Source: Mucilaginibacter sp. (GTDB taxonomy: Bacteria > Bacteroidota > Bacteroidia > Sphingobacteriales > Sphingobacteriaceae). From it: DNA of 64,000 bases. Below the pieces are notes generated by a model, which did not search any database, was not told the DNA's origin, and saw nothing but the letters and a program-made list of their open reading frames with translations. The DNA lies in contig NZ_JAQBOC010000017.1 of assembly GCF_028288225.1 (NCBI RefSeq), forward strand, positions 186,001-250,000, read 5' to 3'. Made by a program: the position numbers and the translations under genes. This document shows positions 23,969-56,906 of this stretch, piece by piece. Every line of letters begins with the position of its first letter. Position 1 is the first letter of the stretch.

Positions 23969-24336
23969 GGGGTCGACCGGAATTGACAGGATGGAGATAA
24001 GTAAGTAAGCATGCAGCGCGTTGGGTGAATTAGCGCTTAAATCAGAACACTCAAAATCACAAATGGCGAAAATAACTACGCCTTAGCTGCTTAATTTAGA
24101 ATTTAGCTAGCTTTTGTCCCGCCGGTTTTCCGTTTCATCGGATCGGCATCAGGGGCATCGAAAGATGGGACTGGCCTGCTTAAGGTGTGCATAGCGGGCG
24201 AGATAAAGCACCTAAGGAAGACGGTACAGGCAAGCAACTGGCCTTCCCCTTCCCTACAATTAAACAGAAGCTAAGCATGTAGAAAGCTTACCTTATACCA
24301 TGTTTGGACGAGGGTTCGAATCCCTCCGGCTCCACC
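23969..24336 (+). ncRNA. ssrA: Transfer-messenger RNA (tmRNA)
   Basis: The acceptor halves are GGGGTCG at the 5' end and CGGCTCC at 24327-24333, with two wobble pairs, followed by the discriminator A. The T arm GAGGGTTCGAATCCCTC and the D-like opening GACCGGAATTGACAGG fit tmRNA. The tag frame at 24065-24094 reads GENNYALAA-stop, a typical Bacteroidota tag ending in ALAA. tmRNA with SmpB rescues stalled ribosomes and marks the nascent chain for proteolysis. Its 3' end is one copy of the island repeat, so the gene is kept intact by the insertion. Confidence 0.95.
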
Positions 24337-25848
24337 CGAAGGGATAATCATCTGATTATCCCTTTTTTTATCATAAATTAACAGATTTTTCTCTCTCATT
24401 ATCAGCGAATTATGTGCAAACACTTCCATCATCGTTGGAGTTCGATAGACACCGTTTTGATAGTATAAATTGCTGTCGAACACCAGGTTTACAAACTCAC
24501 GTTTTTGAATTGTATCTGCTTTACCGTATATATATTTAATATCCGTAAGGAAATTTAAATGCTTAGCTAAAATCTTAAATCCTTGTGAATGGTCTTTTCC
24601 TAATCTTTCTACTGCACCCTTGATAGAAAAAATCTCACCATTGTAATTCGAAGACCAACGATCATATGTTTCACGAGATATTTGACTACTGATCCATTTC
24701 TCTTCTACAGCAAATAATTTTTCCTGCACCTTTTCAAGTTCTTCTTTTTTTTCAACAAGTGCTTTCTTATTACTATTCATAGCTGTCTCAAGCGATTGTT
24801 CGGCTGTTTCCTTAATGTATTTAATATTTGTTTGCGATAAACTCATTAATTCGCATACTTCTAAAAATTGGTTGTGGGATTTGATTGCACTAACATTATT
24901 GTGTTGCGGAAACTTACATTTATAGTAGTAAAACCATTTTCCAGTCTTGCCTCGGGACGGAGCGCCTGAAAGTGGCTGTCCACAATGACACCTCAGTATT
25001 CCTCTAAGAGGAATATTATCATCTAATACGGATTTTGTTTTTTGGGGCTTTGCGATTTTGTTTTGTACAATTTGCCATGTAATTTTGTCAATTATCGGCT
25101 CATGAATACCTGGAAACAATCCTCCGGGATATTCTTTAAAGGCTTTTGCTTTAACCATTCCAGCATAAACGGGATTTGTCAATATACGTTCTATCGCCAT
25201 GTTGCCTCCGCGATTAAATCCCAATGTCTTAGCTTGATTTTTCAATTCATAAAGGGGGACGTTACGCAAATAGGACTCATAAATAAATTGTATGATTTTC
25301 GCGTCTTTCTCCTCGATAACAATTGTGCGATTTTTACCCTCACCTACCTTTTTGTACCCAAAAGGCGCTAGGTTGCTCAGAAATCTTCCTTCTTTGGCCC
25401 TGGCGGTATAATTCCCTCCTCTTATTTTAATGCTTCTATTAATGTTATCTTCTTCAGCGAGTAACAACTGAAGACCTGTTCTGAAATAACTGCCGGGAGT
25501 ATCATAATCAAAAGTAATTCCCTCCGTAACGCTTACGATTTGAATGCTATATTGTTTTTGCAGTCGTTTAACTAACGTCATTGCCTCTCCCGCATCACGG
25601 CTAAATCTATCTAACTGATCAACAACAAGATAATCTACGTTCTTTTGGTGTTTCGTAATAAAGGCAGTTAGCTTTAAAAAATCAGGCCTATCGAAAGTTT
25701 TTGCGCTGTGTCCACGATCGATAAAAGTGTCAATCAAATGAACTTGGTTAAATTGAAGCCATTGGTCAGTATAAAGTTCTTGGCGTTCAATAGACCCGTT
25801 ACTTTGACCTAAATTGCTGAAGCGCAAATATCTAATCGCTCGTTTCAT
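24271..25848 (-). CDS. Large serine recombinase (site-specific integrase)
   Basis: The 525-residue protein has a resolvase domain with catalytic Ser in YLRFSNLGQSNGSIERQ (near residue 11) and DQLDRFSRDAGEAM, a recombinase domain (NLAPFGYKKV...GMVKAKAF), a zinc ribbon (CHCGQPLSG...KC) and a long coiled coil (about residues 350-450). It should cut and rejoin att DNA, here at tmRNA. The last 30 or so codons (PSGGAGGIRTLVQTWYK) are antisense to the tmRNA 3' end, so they come from the target. A 51-codon gene overlaps its start. In an excised circle the frame would end ...GAGRICITLVLC. Confidence 0.9.
   Translation of the reverse strand: MKRAIRYLRFSNLGQSNGSIERQELYTDQWLQFNQVHLIDTFIDRGHSAKTFDRPDFLKLTAFITKHQKNVDYLVVDQLDRFSRDAGEAMTLVKRLQKQYSIQIVSVTEGITFDYDTPGSYFRTGLQLLLAEEDNINRSIKIRGGNYTARAKEGRFLSNLAPFGYKKVGEGKNRTIVIEEKDAKIIQFIYESYLRNVPLYELKNQAKTLGFNRGGNMAIERILTNPVYAGMVKAKAFKEYPGGLFPGIHEPIIDKITWQIVQNKIAKPQKTKSVLDDNIPLRGILRCHCGQPLSGAPSRGKTGKWFYYYKCKFPQHNNVSAIKSHNQFLEVCELMSLSQTNIKYIKETAEQSLETAMNSNKKALVEKKEELEKVQEKLFAVEEKWISSQISRETYDRWSSNYNGEIFSIKGAVERLGKDHSQGFKILAKHLNFLTDIKYIYGKADTIQKREFVNLVFDSNLYYQNGVYRTPTMMEVFAHNSLIMREKNLLIYDKKRDNQMIIPSGGAGGIRTLVQTWYKVSFLHA
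24319..24368 (+). repeat. Left attachment site (attL): tmRNA 3' end and terminator
   Basis: Fifty bases running from the T arm of tmRNA through its terminator to a T-run are repeated at 56857-56906 with one mismatch (C at 24324, T at 56862). The last 44 bases are identical. Confidence 0.85.
24341..24369 (+). terminator. tmRNA terminator
   Basis: Ten-base arms GGGATAATCA and TGATTATCCC with a two-base loop, followed by seven T. It lies 5 bases past the tmRNA and inside the att repeat. Confidence 0.85.
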
Positions 25849-25987
25849 ATAGTTCTTTTAATGTAATTTGAACAAGAATTTCCGCTAATAAATTTAGTAA
25901 TTTCTTTTCTTTTTCTTGTTCAAGCTCCTTAGCTTTTTGTGAAATATTTTTCTCGATTGCGTCTTGAGTGTCCTTGCTAATTTCCAT
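25832..25987 (-). CDS. Small coiled-coil protein overlapping the recombinase start
   Basis: The 51-residue frame (MEISKDTQDAIEKNI, then KELEQEKEKKLLNLLAEIL) starts at the ATG at 25987 and ends at 25832, overlapping the recombinase start by 17 bases. This is a translational-coupling layout. Its regular heptads suggest a coiled coil. I do not recognise the family. It may be a directionality or accessory factor for the recombinase, by position only. Confidence 0.5.
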   Translation of the reverse strand: MEISKDTQDAIEKNISQKAKELEQEKEKKLLNLLAEILVQITLKELYETSD

Positions 25988-26213
25988 ATCAAATTAATCA
26001 ACCTGTCAATAAAATCTTTAAACAGCAAATCTTATCTTGCCATTAATGCGACGACAAATTTCATAAGCTTATAAAGCTGTTTATGACAAGTTTTTCGGTA
26101 GTACCGATAAATAAGGTAGGACTTGATTAACCGAAGGGAAATTAAGGAGAATATTAAGCGATTCAAAAGGCACGAAAAGTCGCAAGATTTAGGAACATTT
26201 TGAAGACACAATC

Positions 26214-26242
26214 ATAGTGGAGAATGCAAAAGTCTCCACTAT
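26214..26242. terminator. Hairpin in the recombinase upstream region
   Basis: Ten-base arms ATAGTGGAGA and TCTCCACTAT with a nine-base loop. It sits between the recombinase promoter region and gene relics to its right. There is only a weak T tract, so the terminator role is tentative. Confidence 0.45.
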
Positions 26243-26271
26243 ATTGTCTGTTAAGGCTGTTATTCAATCAT

Positions 26272-26892
26272 TTAATAAATATCAATAGGCATATTCCTCT
26301 TATTCAGCCACAAAACATCAATTGGAGATAACATTTCATCACACTCTGCGTGTTGTTCGTTCCCAAGCCTCCTGAAATGTCCACTAACCGTCCTAAAAAT
26401 TATCAGGGCTGACAAAAATGCCCTTGCCCCCTGGCCGCTCGTTTCCAAAATAAATGAAATAGTCCGGCGAGGGCAAGTATTTTACTTTATACCGTTGGTA
26501 TACAGCGTCAGGTTGGATGAGGCCATTAATGATCAACCGGCTACCGTCCAGTCGGAATGTTTTGACACTGCCATCAGGCGCTATCTGTTCGATGATGATT
26601 TGGTGAATGATCGTGCGAATCAGAGCTTTGTTTTTCCCGGCAACAGTCGAAGTATCCTGCTTTGATAATAATATTTAAGTAGCTCCGGCCATTTTTGGGG
26701 ATTCTTTAATATCGCCCTTACCAAACCGGGATAGTTGTTGATATCCAGATCGGTTTGTGCCAGTTTTTCCCGGGTGTAGCCAACAACTGTTCGCCGGCTT
26801 GCAGCCGGATGCTTTGATTTTCGCCGCTTATACCCATAATACCCGTACGTACCCTGATCTCTGTTTGATCCCCAATGAGCAACTGCAAGCAT
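26272..26892 (-). pseudogene. Broken minus-strand reading frames (unrecognised relic)
   Basis: Three protein-like pieces follow each other on the minus strand. 26892-26620 reads YTREKLAQTDLDINNYPGLV to LLPGK; a one-base shift continues it as NKALIRTIIHQIIIEQIAP and on to KGIFVSPDNF at about 26400; another frame gives SPIDVLWLNKRNMPIDIY and stops at 26272. They look like parts of one or two decayed genes. I cannot name the family. The right end of this relic is antisense to the start of the 610-codon frame, so a rearrangement joined them. Confidence 0.45.
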
Positions 26893-28589
26893 TGGATGAG
26901 CAAAAAAACAGGGAACAAATAGTTGCGGTTTTGATTAACAAGCCTGAGTCCGAATTTTATTCAATAAAATGGTATTACAAACAATTATTTGATCGTTCCT
27001 TAGGTGATAAAGAATGGGGACAGTTTTCGGGAAACAAAGGAAGCTCATCTCACGGTCGATTAAACATAGAGTTACTTACTCCCGCAATAATTTCCTGGCG
27101 GCTATGGCAGAGCTGGTTGGTCGCACATCCAATACTGGAAACCGATTTCAATAATCCATCTCCACCGATCGATGAAAGCAATCCGAATTGGGGTAGTATA
27201 TTAGTGGGTGGTAAAATATTTCTTGCGAACGATGAGCCTAAATACGAATGGGTACCAATCCTTCCTTCGTTGTCAAGTTTTGAGCAATTTGAAAGTTCTT
27301 CCACTACAGCTGGTTTTGCAGTAGGTCTTTCCGGTTTTGCGGTAACCCCTGAACGATCTCAAGCTGATCTTCCATTTACCCATCCGTTTGCAAATGATGA
27401 TGATTTCGGACTACCACCGCAAGAAGGAGGACCACCAGATGGGATAAGGCACCCGTGGGGTAACGTGGGCAATGATTTTACATTTGGCGTTGCGCCCGAT
27501 AAGCAATATTGGCCATTGCTGGCAACAAGCAATCTTGATCTCAGCGCAATTGCACCATGGATTAAGCCGAGCAACGAAGTTTCTGATGGATTAGCAGAAA
27601 CTCCTATAGGTTTTGACGTTCCAGGGATTCTTCACGTAGAGGAAGACATGGGATTGTTGCCAGTGGGATACCGACCCGGGGAATTTGACAGAGTGGCGAT
27701 ATACGGACGCTGGATAATTGATGCCGGGCATGACGATTTCGGATCAGAAATTCACCCGCCAACCTTGTTGGCCGTGGCTCGGCCAAATGGCGATAACAGG
27801 GATGAAACAATATCGACTCTTATTGGGCTGCCATACTTTGTTAGTCAAATCTTTGGACATGATGATAATGAGAATCCTTTAGGTCTGCGAACATATCTTT
27901 TTAGTGAATTGTCAAAAAAAGATGCTGATTTATTTGGACCTCATTTTGGGATGGCCCAAGCCACCCTGCCATATGGGCCTCTCCTTAATACTATGCCTAA
28001 TATCTATCCTGGTTTTGGGCCTGATGGAAGCTTTATTTATTTTTTTTACACGTTACGGCTCCCTTCGGGCAGAAAGTCTTCGTCAGACAAATTAATAGTA
28101 AGGGCAAATTTCAAGACAAGAACGGGTGTAATACCGCTAATAGTAGCAGGCAATGATGAATTGTATGTATATATTATTACAACACCGGATTATGTTGCAG
28201 CACAAACGCCACTGCAAGCTGGATGGTTGGACATTTCTAAGGACGATTTACTCAATGAAGCGAGTCAATCGGAAATAGATGCTGTCAATCAGTATTTATC
28301 TGAAGCAATAAATGGTATTAGACAAGGTCGGAAACCCGATGGCTCACAAATCCCCAGTGTTGCGGATTGGGATGCCCTGGCGAATGGACTGCAGGATTTA
28401 ATTAACAGAGGGGTATCAATGCCTTGGTACAAGGCTCCGGCGGCTCCAAGTCCAGAAGAACTCGATCAGAACGCTTTTGAAATACTAATGGAAGATTGGT
28501 CAGGCCCGAAAGAGGCACCGAGAGATATTGATGACCATCAACCTTTTCCGATATGTGGTTCAATTAAATTACGGTGGTCGCGTGCATAG
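26757..28589 (+). CDS. Large protein of unknown function; N-terminus uncertain
   Basis: The frame is open for 610 codons but has no ATG in its first half. The GTG at 26757 would read antisense to the relic above, so the real start may be a TTG near 26931 (LINKPESEFYSIKW), or the N-terminus may be lost. There is no signal peptide. It holds WGSILVGGKIFLANDEPKY, the striking block YGRWIIDAGHDDFGSEIHPP, and GPFGPDG-like turns, and is rich in Pro, Gly, Asp and Trp. I have a faint memory of such EIHPP motifs in uncharacterised proteins and give no function. It sits among mobility relics. Confidence 0.6.
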   Translation: MPVFPGCSQQLFAGLQPDALIFAAYTHNTRTYPDLCLIPNEQLQALDEQKNREQIVAVLINKPESEFYSIKWYYKQLFDRSLGDKEWGQFSGNKGSSSHGRLNIELLTPAIISWRLWQSWLVAHPILETDFNNPSPPIDESNPNWGSILVGGKIFLANDEPKYEWVPILPSLSSFEQFESSSTTAGFAVGLSGFAVTPERSQADLPFTHPFANDDDFGLPPQEGGPPDGIRHPWGNVGNDFTFGVAPDKQYWPLLATSNLDLSAIAPWIKPSNEVSDGLAETPIGFDVPGILHVEEDMGLLPVGYRPGEFDRVAIYGRWIIDAGHDDFGSEIHPPTLLAVARPNGDNRDETISTLIGLPYFVSQIFGHDDNENPLGLRTYLFSELSKKDADLFGPHFGMAQATLPYGPLLNTMPNIYPGFGPDGSFIYFFYTLRLPSGRKSSSDKLIVRANFKTRTGVIPLIVAGNDELYVYIITTPDYVAAQTPLQAGWLDISKDDLLNEASQSEIDAVNQYLSEAINGIRQGRKPDGSQIPSVADWDALANGLQDLINRGVSMPWYKAPAAPSPEELDQNAFEILMEDWSGPKEAPRDIDDHQPFPICGSIKLRWSRA

Positions 28590-28678
28590 CGCCAAACAAG
28601 TTTAGAACTATAACAGGAAATAAACAGAACAGCCAGAACAGGCTATTCAATATCTGTATTAATAGCTGGTTTTTAAAT

Positions 28679-28714
28679 TAACTAACCATTGGCAAATAAC
28701 TAACCATTGGCAAA
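28679..28714 (+). repeat. Perfect 18-bp tandem duplication
   Basis: TAACTAACCATTGGCAAA occurs twice, head to tail, in the otherwise gene-free DNA after the 610-codon frame. Too few copies for an iteron origin; it may be a slippage duplication or a paired protein-binding site. Confidence 0.7.
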
Positions 28715-28805
28715 CCAGAGATTGTGATGGAAGATTTATCTATTTATTGTTTAGTATTTTAACCGTCTTATTTGCTGCTGGAACAACTTTCTAAAATATG
28801 GAGAG

Positions 28806-29006
28806 TTGTCTTCAAAACACAGTGTTGCAATGGCTTCTTACGGCCAGCTCAGAAGAAAATTAGAGTTATCAAATTGTTGGGGAGATATTTTAACAAGAGA
28901 TTTTTTTAAACAAATACTGGTTCAATGGGGTGAACTTGAAAAAAAATCACCCGCTATTTGGAAAAAGATCTACACTAAAGTTTTGGAACCGATTAGTGAA
29001 ACTTAA
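28806..29006 (+). CDS. Hypothetical 66-residue frame
   Basis: Start ATG or the in-frame ATG 8 codons later (MASYGQLRRKLELSNCWG). The sequence is protein-like (FFKQILVQWGELEKKSPAIW), basic, with no TM segment. I do not recognise it, and it may be a fragment. No clear promoter. Kept at low confidence. Confidence 0.3.
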   Translation: MSSKHSVAMASYGQLRRKLELSNCWGDILTRDFFKQILVQWGELEKKSPAIWKKIYTKVLEPISET

Positions 29007-29350
29007 CTCGGAATCCCGTTAGTATGTCAACTTTCTCGTCAGTAATGATGTGGTTTTACCGGCGGCTTTGCTGTCTTTGGAGTTTAGCGTGCGGAAAAAT
29101 TTCAAAAAGAAACCGGCACGTTTAAAACCGGATAATAATAAAAGGCTACCCTGATCAGGAGTTGCCTTTCGTTGGTTTCTATGCAGCTTTATTTACTGCA
29201 ATCGCCCTTCGTAATGAATTAGGGTTTTTATTTAACGGATTTGGTGCAAATCAAATTACAATAATTTAGTTGGAGAAATACTTAGGAGCAAGCATGCGCT
29301 TTGACAGTCGTTGCATACGTAGATGGCCGGGGTGTTACCTCCCATTCTCG
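29007..29350. other. Gene-free stretch with a terminator hairpin
   Basis: About 340 bp with no gene. Its main content is the hairpin at 29141-29169, which serves the RteC relic on the minus strand. Confidence 0.5.
29141..29169 (-). terminator. Terminator-like hairpin downstream of the RteC relic
   Basis: AAAGGC and GCCTTT arms close over the self-complementary CCTGATCAGG. On the minus strand it is followed by TTATTATTAT. Confidence 0.6.
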
Positions 29351-29692
29351 TCATCGATTCTTTTTAATATCGCGTCCCTTACCGCTACTATAAATTTTAC
29401 CTGGCACCCTTTTTCTGGACATAATGGACTGCCAGCGGCGGTGGGCCTTACCGATCTTTACATTGAAATGCGCTTCCAGCCACTGGATGATTTCGGTAAT
29501 CGATGCGTTGCCATATTTAATTTGCCCGGTCAGCCAGATGCCGTAGCCAAATTCAACGAGGTTAATGGTCTCCCCTGTCCAGGATAAAGTTTTAGGATTA
29601 TCCTTTACCAGTTCGCGGGATTCTTTGTGATAGGTGTTTTCAAGACTTTTCAATTCGTCGATTAAATAGGTTTGCAGCCTTTCCAATGCCAT
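29351..29692 (-). pseudogene. RteC-like protein, C-terminal fragment
   Basis: The 113-residue piece (SLENTYHKESRELVKDNPKT, LSWTGETINLVEFGYGIWL, TGQIKYGNASITEIIQWLEA, FNVKIGKAHRRWQSIMSRK) matches the C-terminal domain of RteC, the regulator that switches on excision of Bacteroidota conjugative transposons. The N-terminal two thirds are missing. It shows that at least part of the island came from a CTnDOT-like element. It is probably not functional. Confidence 0.7.
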
Positions 29693-29901
29693 AAACCTGC
29701 CAAAAAGCTGCTCACCAGGGGCGATACGAGTACTTCTGCGGGTTTATGCCGTAGTTCCTCCGTACGGGGCTTTGGGGATGGGCCGGGCGAGCCGGGTACC
29801 TTTGGTGGTTTTTTCTGTTTGTTAGAATAGCATTAAACGCTATATTTAACTAATTGAAAATCAATGCTATTAAAAAAAAAACATCTTTAACGGACTTAGC
29901 C

Positions 29902-30401
29902 ATGTTTACATCATCACAACAAGAAACGTACTTAGCAGGCTTAATTGAGGAGGGCGTTGCTAAATTTAAAAGCAAAACCAAGTGGTCAAAGATTGCGAAC
30001 TACGTAGTGTCGGTGGCAATTATTGTGCTGTCTTCCCTTTTAACCGTTACGCTCGGGCTAAACTTCGACTCAAACGGGACAGCAGCTGTATCGAATGTAT
30101 TGCAGGTAAAAAATTATGCCTTAATCATCGGTGCGAGCATAACCCTGCTTTCGGCGCTTAAAGCCTTTTGGAAATTGGATACCTACTGGATCAGGCGTAA
30201 AATAATGTTTGGGAAATATGAGGATCTTCAATATGAATTTAAGTATAAACAAGCATCTAACTCACTAAAGATCTGGCCGCATTGTTTGAACAATACCGAG
30301 CCATTCAAGCCAATCAAATGAACTATTGGGAAGATGCCTACAAGCGCTTAAAAACAGAAACGGACAAAAAGAAAGATCCCAAACCTCACCAGAGTGAATA
30401 A
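29902..30401 (+). pseudogene. SLATT-type 2TM protein, frameshifted near its C-terminus
   Basis: Translation starts at the ATG at 29902 (MFTSSQQETYLAGLI). Two membrane helices (NYVVSVAIIVLSSLLTVTLG and YALIIGASITLLSALKAFW) are followed by the cytoplasmic DTYWIRRKIMFGKYEDLQYEF. This is the SLATT layout of 2TM proteins linked to nucleotide-sensing defence (SMODS/CBASS-like) systems. After ...KYKQASNSLK at about 30263 the frame fails, but the neighbouring frame continues with KDLAALFEQYRAIQANQMNY and EDAYKRLKTETDKKK up to the stop at 30401, a normal SLATT end. A one-base loss, or a sequencing error, explains it. No partner cyclase is seen. Confidence 0.6.
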
Positions 30402-30583
30402 ATTCATGGATAATTTATAAATACATAAAAGCCCCCGTGCACTCGCTGCTTTGGAGCTTTAATCTACACCTTGTCACAATGCGCACATGAGCGTGCGTTT
30501 TGAGGCCGCAAGATAGCATCCAATTTTTTTTATAACAAGAGCCATCCCTAAAAGTGCTATATTTTAAGTCTAAACCATTCACA

Positions 30584-30799
30584 ATGAAAAGAATGCTTCT
30601 TATTGTCACGATGCTTATCGGTATATCCGTGAGCTATGCAACACCCATCAAGCCGCATATCAAAGCCACTGTTGATTCAGTCTATATATGCCAAAGCAGA
30701 GCAGCTTATGCCTATCACTCCTATGAGTGCAGAGGGCTATCACAGTGCACCCATGTCATTGTGAAGATTCCCAAAGCCCAGGCAATCAAACAAGGGTAA
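30584..30799 (+). CDS. Small secreted Cys-containing protein, probably truncated
   Basis: From the ATG at 30584 the 71-residue product has a signal peptide (MKRMLLIVTMLIGISVSYA) and a mature part VYICQSRAAYAYHSYECRG / LSQCTHVIVKIPKAQAIKQG. This resembles a small family found in Bacteroidota with HS...CRGL..C and an end with CK.C. The ending Cys pair is missing here, so the 3' end seems to have been lost. Function unknown. Confidence 0.55.
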   Translation: MKRMLLIVTMLIGISVSYATPIKPHIKATVDSVYICQSRAAYAYHSYECRGLSQCTHVIVKIPKAQAIKQG

Positions 30800-30903
30800 C
30801 TTACGGTAAACATAATAACAGCTGCGGCTTACCGAAAGAACATTACACATAACAATAACAGGAAAGATCAGTTCCTGGGAAAGAATAAAGGCATACACCT
30901 TCT

Positions 30904-56856: not shown

Positions 56857-56906
56857 AATCCTTCCGGCTCCACCCGAAGGGATAATCATCTGATTATCCC
56901 TTTTTT
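56857..56906 (+). repeat. Right attachment site (attR): copy of tmRNA end and terminator
   Basis: Copy of the left att repeat, with one mismatch (T at 56862) and an identical 44-base tail, including the hairpin with GGGATAATCA and TGATTATCCC arms. The DNA on both sides is otherwise unrelated to tmRNA, so it is not a second ssrA gene. Confidence 0.85.

Follow-up and report, generated by a model that had tools for sequence, protein, structure and literature searches.

The open frame at positions 26757–28589 of the window, i.e. the whole stretch of 64,000 nucleotides from Mucilaginibacter sp. analyzed here, can with some confidence be regarded as the nearly complete remains of an acquired gene whose start was lost where it joins a FecR-like gene, and whose family domain would combine an OB-like fold with a metal site. 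As judged from its sequence, it belongs to a widespread, uncatalogued family of bacterial proteins. A previous sequence-only reading had called the frame unassignable and suggested that it could be island cargo, truncated by a rearrangement and perhaps deprived of an N-terminal domain. Cargo, truncation and the failure to assign it are borne out by the results below; the missing domain is not, as the closest homologues, L010 and L014, have only about 70 residues ahead of the region shared with the window protein and no apparent signal peptide (by eye).

An Uncatalogued Protein Family

The frame is matched by no Pfam or NCBIfam model and is present as a single copy in its own genome. A protein search among 298 relatives found no counterpart in the other 297, while a search of 395 genomes of the phylum returned the frame itself and weak matches in 28 others (best E 0.0107). 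Plasmid and phage searches with the frame gave a best E of about 1, and blastn of window positions 25850–30900 against plasmids gave no match. Matches to PHROGs at E 0.19 and 0.38 were taken as chance. In the PDB, a sequence search with the frame reached an Annexin at E 0.25, i.e. no solved relative, and the family profile had no match. Peptide patterns run against genome contigs gave nine stretches, none of them a relative.

Homologues were recovered with the DNA pattern W[IV]-x-D-x-G-H-x5-E-I-H-P-P, which occurs in one stretch of the viral contigs and in seven of the genome contigs; in all eight, the EIHPP block lies inside a long open frame. The phyla represented are Chloroflexota, Acidobacteriota, Myxococcota, Actinomycetota and Bacillota (a Paenibacillus). 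Five homologues align to the window protein at 25–36% identity (L010 36%, L014 25%) and, where intact, have its C-terminal end in common; among the five, L010 is cut by a contig end and L011 is frame-shifted at its C-terminus. Together with the window sequence they formed the six-sequence profile used for wider searches. With this profile, the domain was detected in the window's class in 25 genomes out of 294 besides the window's own. The class of L014 (200 genomes) contributed three matches besides G674, a set of 27 genomes two besides G675, and a set of 145 genomes six besides G671 and G676. Six of the eight matches from the latter two sets (L114–L119) span most of the profile and two the domain only; in the classes of the window and of L014, the new matches extend over all or part of the domain. 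Six of the 26 genomes matched in the window's class gave no locus and were left out of the reading, and among the 26 only the window's own belongs to its family f1. L117 has one TAA within its profile match, so that, counting the frame-shifted L011, two members of the narrow family look damaged.

A looser pattern, D-x-G-H-x5-E-I-H-P, yielded 11 stretches in the viral contigs, and inspection by eye recognized a relative only in L002; the six-sequence profile recovered only the L002 contig from the viral contigs. Plasmid tblastn with L014, L015, L044, L013 and one protein of the HGQ family described below gave no match. A Pfam/NCBIfam scan of 14 relatives gave no match above cut-off in the EIHPP domain; LGFP repeats lie elsewhere in L012 and L013. 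Our literature search found no paper mentioning EIHPP or GVGFFDF, and the papers matching EIHPV, ELHPV, EIHPP or TEIHP do not, by their titles and the beginnings of their abstracts, concern such a family.

In a tree of 21 rows, the window protein groups with L010, from an Anaerolineae metagenome-assembled genome (MAG), and L014, from a Terriglobia MAG (support 96/91). It differs from both in lacking their MACE start and in carrying an extra insertion of 26 residues after HPF (residues 212–237; 27390–27467, plus strand), which is also absent from L011, L015 and L016; near this site, the insertions of L012, L013 and L002 differ from it in length. The C-terminal part (27855–28586, plus strand), defined by alignment with homologues including L114–L119, ends in a QPFPxxGxIxxxW segment that reads HQPFPICGSIKLRW in the window, QIFPFTG in L014 and QPFPFYG in L015 and L016. 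This shared ending indicates that the 3' end of the window gene is complete. L015, L016 and L011 (Actinomycetota, Myxococcota) as well as L114–L119 resemble the window protein in the EIHPP domain and, where intact, in QPFPFYG or a close variant; unlike it, those read have a signal- or lipobox-like N-terminus (by eye). The relatives from the window's class (L033–L051) share the domain with its HYTHD, HVEWE and GHPPxxTEIHP blocks, but the match is confined to it and their open frames are mostly 527–586 residues long; the five of which the full sequence was read appear to be secreted. Many of the family members read appear by eye to be secreted or lipoprotein-like, whereas no signal is apparent in the subgroup of the window, L010 and L014. 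The neighborhoods of L010, L014, L015 and L016 have no genes in common (by eye).

An hhalign comparison of the nine narrow-family and LGFP-type sequences with 17 others that were aligned separately (14 from the window's class and three from that of L014) gave a probability of 99.3% and an E of 3.5e-20 over 118 columns, which speaks to alignability and not to an independent find, since both sets had been trimmed to the region around the motif and the first one had served to find the second.

Conserved Residues and Predicted Fold

The EIHPP domain corresponds to residues 162–366 of the window frame (27240–27854, plus strand), as delimited by the alignments, the domain model and the fold searches. 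W165, G193, H209, D240, E295 and G317, which lie outside the selecting motif, are present in all 34 domain sequences, and D204 in 33 of them. D322, G324, H325, E331 and H333 are likewise found in 34 of 34, an invariance that is partly due to selection because these residues belong to the motif itself; they fall in the GRWIIDAGHDDFGSEIHPP block (residues 317–335; 27705–27761, plus strand), where D-x-G-H-x5-E-I-H-P-P spans residues 322–335. Five loci (L043, L046, L048, L049 and L051) failed the motif expression and were left out of the 34, yet still show the HY[TS]HD, H[IV]EWE and GHPPxxTEIHP blocks. The window protein retains each of these conserved residues.

Many invariant His, Asp and Glu residues in an otherwise divergent family are typical of an active site. 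From the residue types, the conserved W, H, D, E, D, H, E, H set is, by a modest preference, a divalent metal site; that this putative site is catalytic rather than merely binding would be a bolder proposal, to which we give distinctly less than even weight. The main competitor is a structural or ligand-binding role of the invariant residues in a binding module, secreted or surface-exposed in many relatives. The LGFP repeats of L012 and L013 fit such a module, as do the lipoprotein-like starts of L015 and L016 (by eye), but the sheer number of invariant His, Asp and Glu residues speaks, on general grounds, for an active site. A binding module is a serious contender, at somewhat less than even weight.

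The structure prediction and fold search suggested by the earlier reading gave mostly OB-like proteins as the nearest matches, at the level of the L015 domain and with none significant. A full-length AlphaFold model of the window protein was poor (mean pLDDT 44.7). Its Foldseek list, mostly antibody Fabs with GH98 also present, was treated as meaningless; VIA-align of the same model placed MCM8 (MCM8-NTD), LysRS and GH98 enzymes among the top rows at Z 4.0–4.4. The domain model m57d36ae4087a, built on homologue L015 with nine sequences and not on the window's own domain, is of moderate quality (pLDDT 68.6, pTM 0.67) and mostly beta. Foldseek against the PDB returned SSB (0.058), Hcp1, another SSB and LysRS as top rows for this model at E 0.058–0.15, none reaching E ≤ 0.001. 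With VIA-align, the best match was PriB (Z 6.5, rmsd 3.1, 89 aligned); 108 of 996 chains had Z ≥ 5 and none Z ≥ 8, and a Z under 8 may mean a common arrangement only. The best 50 rows are mostly SSB, PriB, tRNA-synthetase (among them LysRS), RecO and other entries that are known as OB folds. In BFVD, no match had E ≤ 0.001, and the top rows contained uncharacterized proteins and SSBs. Proteins with the five-stranded OB barrel, such as SSB, PriB and the LysRS anticodon domain, make up most of the nearest matches to the moderate L015 model, all below significance, and we consider an OB fold of the EIHPP domain fairly likely. The PDB sequence-profile search revealed no relative among OB proteins, and SSB, PriB and LysRS are not known to carry the EIHPP residue set.

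A Possible Superfamily

The motif HGQ...ELHP was first suspected to mark a second uncatalogued family. What we call here the HGQ family is characterized by DxHLVL, IAEIP and GVGFFDFxHGQTGVAPNxxELHP. Its pattern occurs in 37 stretches of the viral contigs (L073–L109), most of which also contain DxHLVL- and IAEIP-like blocks, and a Pfam scan of three members gave no match above cut-off. In an alignment of 26 of the 37 stretches, G187, D192, H195, E206, H208 and P209 are invariant. The HGQ family thereby shares with the EIHPP family the spacings G-x4-D-x2-H and E-x-H-P in the same order. Comparison of the two profiles gave local probabilities of 0.9–2.9% in four comparisons and a global one of 0.1%, in register at the motif but not significant; the score was 20.0, whereas none of 60 column shuffles exceeded 17.6. 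The larger alignment raised the probability to 5.0% and the score to 23.6 (at most 21.1 in 60 shuffles), which is still weak. A proteasome chain matching the HGQ alignment in the PDB at E 0.099 was taken as chance.

Conceivably, though rather doubtfully, the EIHPP proteins and their relatives from the window's class could be joined by the HGQ family in one large, uncharacterized superfamily of OB-fold metalloproteins, many of them secreted, and possibly a new enzyme class. Its signature, equally tentative, would be G-x4-D-x2-H ... E-x-H-P.

Coding Status and the 5' End

The frame runs on the plus strand from a GTG at 26757 to the stop ending at 28589 and comprises 610 codons. The sequence-only reading had noted the EIHPP block, a lack of ATG in the first 290 codons and an antisense relic overlapping the 5' end, and all three observations hold: the translation contains YGRWIIDAGHDDFGSEIHPP, the earliest ATG is codon 298, and the relic proves to be a frame-shifted FecR-like C-terminus. 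In 200 simulations of a 64-kb sequence (first-order Markov, same composition, three frames of one strand), the maximum length reached without a stop was 282 codons. From 26892 on, the codon-position G+C of the frame is 0.54/0.43/0.35; within its first 38 codons, third-position G+C is 0.55. Its codon-usage score (0.011) is the lowest of 17, below those of all 16 neighboring genes compared (0.016–0.107), yet exceeds those of the five alternative frames of the same stretch (−0.095 to −0.013), a pattern compatible with a coding gene that is foreign or in decay.

The relic lies at 26396–26873 on the minus strand and was detected by tblastn with the L111 and L112 proteins. Residues 216–378 of L111 align in frames −3, −2 and −1 at 52–54% identity, and the matches of L111 and L112 reach minus-strand positions 26870 and 26873, respectively. 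Since the relative proteins align across three successive minus-strand frames, the relic is the broken C-terminal part of a FecR-like gene, a name that for the relic and its 378- and 411-residue homologues is our judgement from sequence. Searching 100 relatives with the antisense ORF turned up longer proteins in two further genomes, the 378- and 411-residue homologues among them, and a Pfam scan of this ORF gave nothing convincing.

Similarity to L010 starts at codon 41 of the frame (26877), which corresponds to residue 8 of L010, and is weak in this stretch (16 of 2000 shuffles reach the score); against L014, the same N-terminal stretch is not significant (660 of 2000). Codons 1–36 show no similarity to L010 (220 of 500 shuffles reach the score). 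FecR-like and L010 similarities thus meet within about four bases, which is most simply explained by a join at which the ATG and about seven codons were lost. That probably only about seven codons are missing also follows from the short stretch ahead of the shared region in L010 and L014. Both of these begin with MACE plus a helix-like stretch, and this type of start is absent from the window copy at the FecR junction. Loss of the gene start at this junction is hence the likely course of events, and the truncation by rearrangement proposed earlier gains support from a 5' end that abuts the relic.

Alternatively, the gene could be whole and start at one of the in-frame TTG codons at 26865 and 26892, its N-terminus being merely divergent. 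This would leave an open stretch of about 570 codons with coding-like codon positions, and the N-terminal match is weak to L010 and absent to L014. Yet the only ATG or GTG ahead of codon 150 is the GTG of codon 1, inside the FecR antisense stretch, and the match with L010 sets in at L010 residue 8, directly beside the FecR boundary, so that we consider an undamaged gene less likely than a start lost at the junction.

The gene-like part of the frame, as defined by similarity to L010 and by codon-position G+C from 26892, extends from codon 41 to the stop (26877–28589, plus strand) and is a real coding sequence. The preceding 26757–26873 (plus strand), antisense to the relic, is a spurious 5' extension; accordingly, the frame stands as the long coding frame first described, but not with its start. 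That the frame is a non-coding or antisense artefact can be inferred at most from its first 39 codons, which are antisense to the relic, and is refuted for 26877–28589 by homologues across phyla in the identical reading frame, by coding-like codon positions and by a length beyond chance, leaving it practically no probability.

The Genomic Island

The gene resides in a 32.5-kb island in ssrA, as deduced from the recurrence of the ssrA 3' end as a direct repeat and from the gene, at the left end of the island, for a large serine recombinase, the probable integrase (24271–25848, minus strand; Pfam Resolvase 9.3e-20, Recombinase 6.4e-9). The left 50-bp repeat (24319–24368) consists of the 3' end of the tmRNA gene with a terminator-like hairpin, and the right one (56857–56906) is a displaced copy of the ssrA 3' end with 49 of 50 positions identical. 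Integration at tmRNA genes is known (PMC4383910, PMC3146451). In addition to the EIHPP gene, the island contains the FecR-like relic, an RteC gene fragment (29351–29692, minus strand; profile positions 106–199 of 219; Pfam RteC 5.4e-23), a transposase-like ORF and polysaccharide genes. A lone copy that is absent from the other 297 relatives searched and flanked by the ssrA repeats agrees with the proposal of island cargo.

Between 36837 and 56449, genes for a GDP-mannose dehydratase, a WecG-type transferase, a sugar transferase, a GNVR/AAA protein and a glycosyltransferase are followed by genes for CHU_C and PorP/SprF proteins. A second copy of segment 29737–30798 (about 1.06 kb), with 82% identity, lies elsewhere in the genome (C4:36189–37243), near a large conjugation-type ATPase-like gene (by eye); the DUF4231-like ORF of the window segment differs at its end from that of the copy.

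Origin and Significance

Taken together, the gene was acquired horizontally and lies as cargo in an island integrated at ssrA. Its left end was joined to a decaying FecR-like gene, probably at the cost of the start codon and about seven codons. The product is one member of an uncatalogued widespread family, whose defining unit is a small domain of about 150–200 residues, probably with an OB-like barrel. The invariant W, H, D, E, D, H, E, H set would most likely serve to bind a divalent metal and perhaps constitute an active site. In the narrow family, the domain is followed by a second, beta-rich C-terminal part.

The window copy could possibly be expressed from a TTG start but is probably only a decaying cargo gene, and the family is of more interest than this copy. 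Its conserved domain, with a likely active site, spans the five phyla named above and, within the window's class, 25 of the 294 other genomes, with no Pfam or NCBIfam match above cut-off in the members scanned. Defining the EIHPP domain renders many proteins annotated as "hypothetical" comparable and testable.
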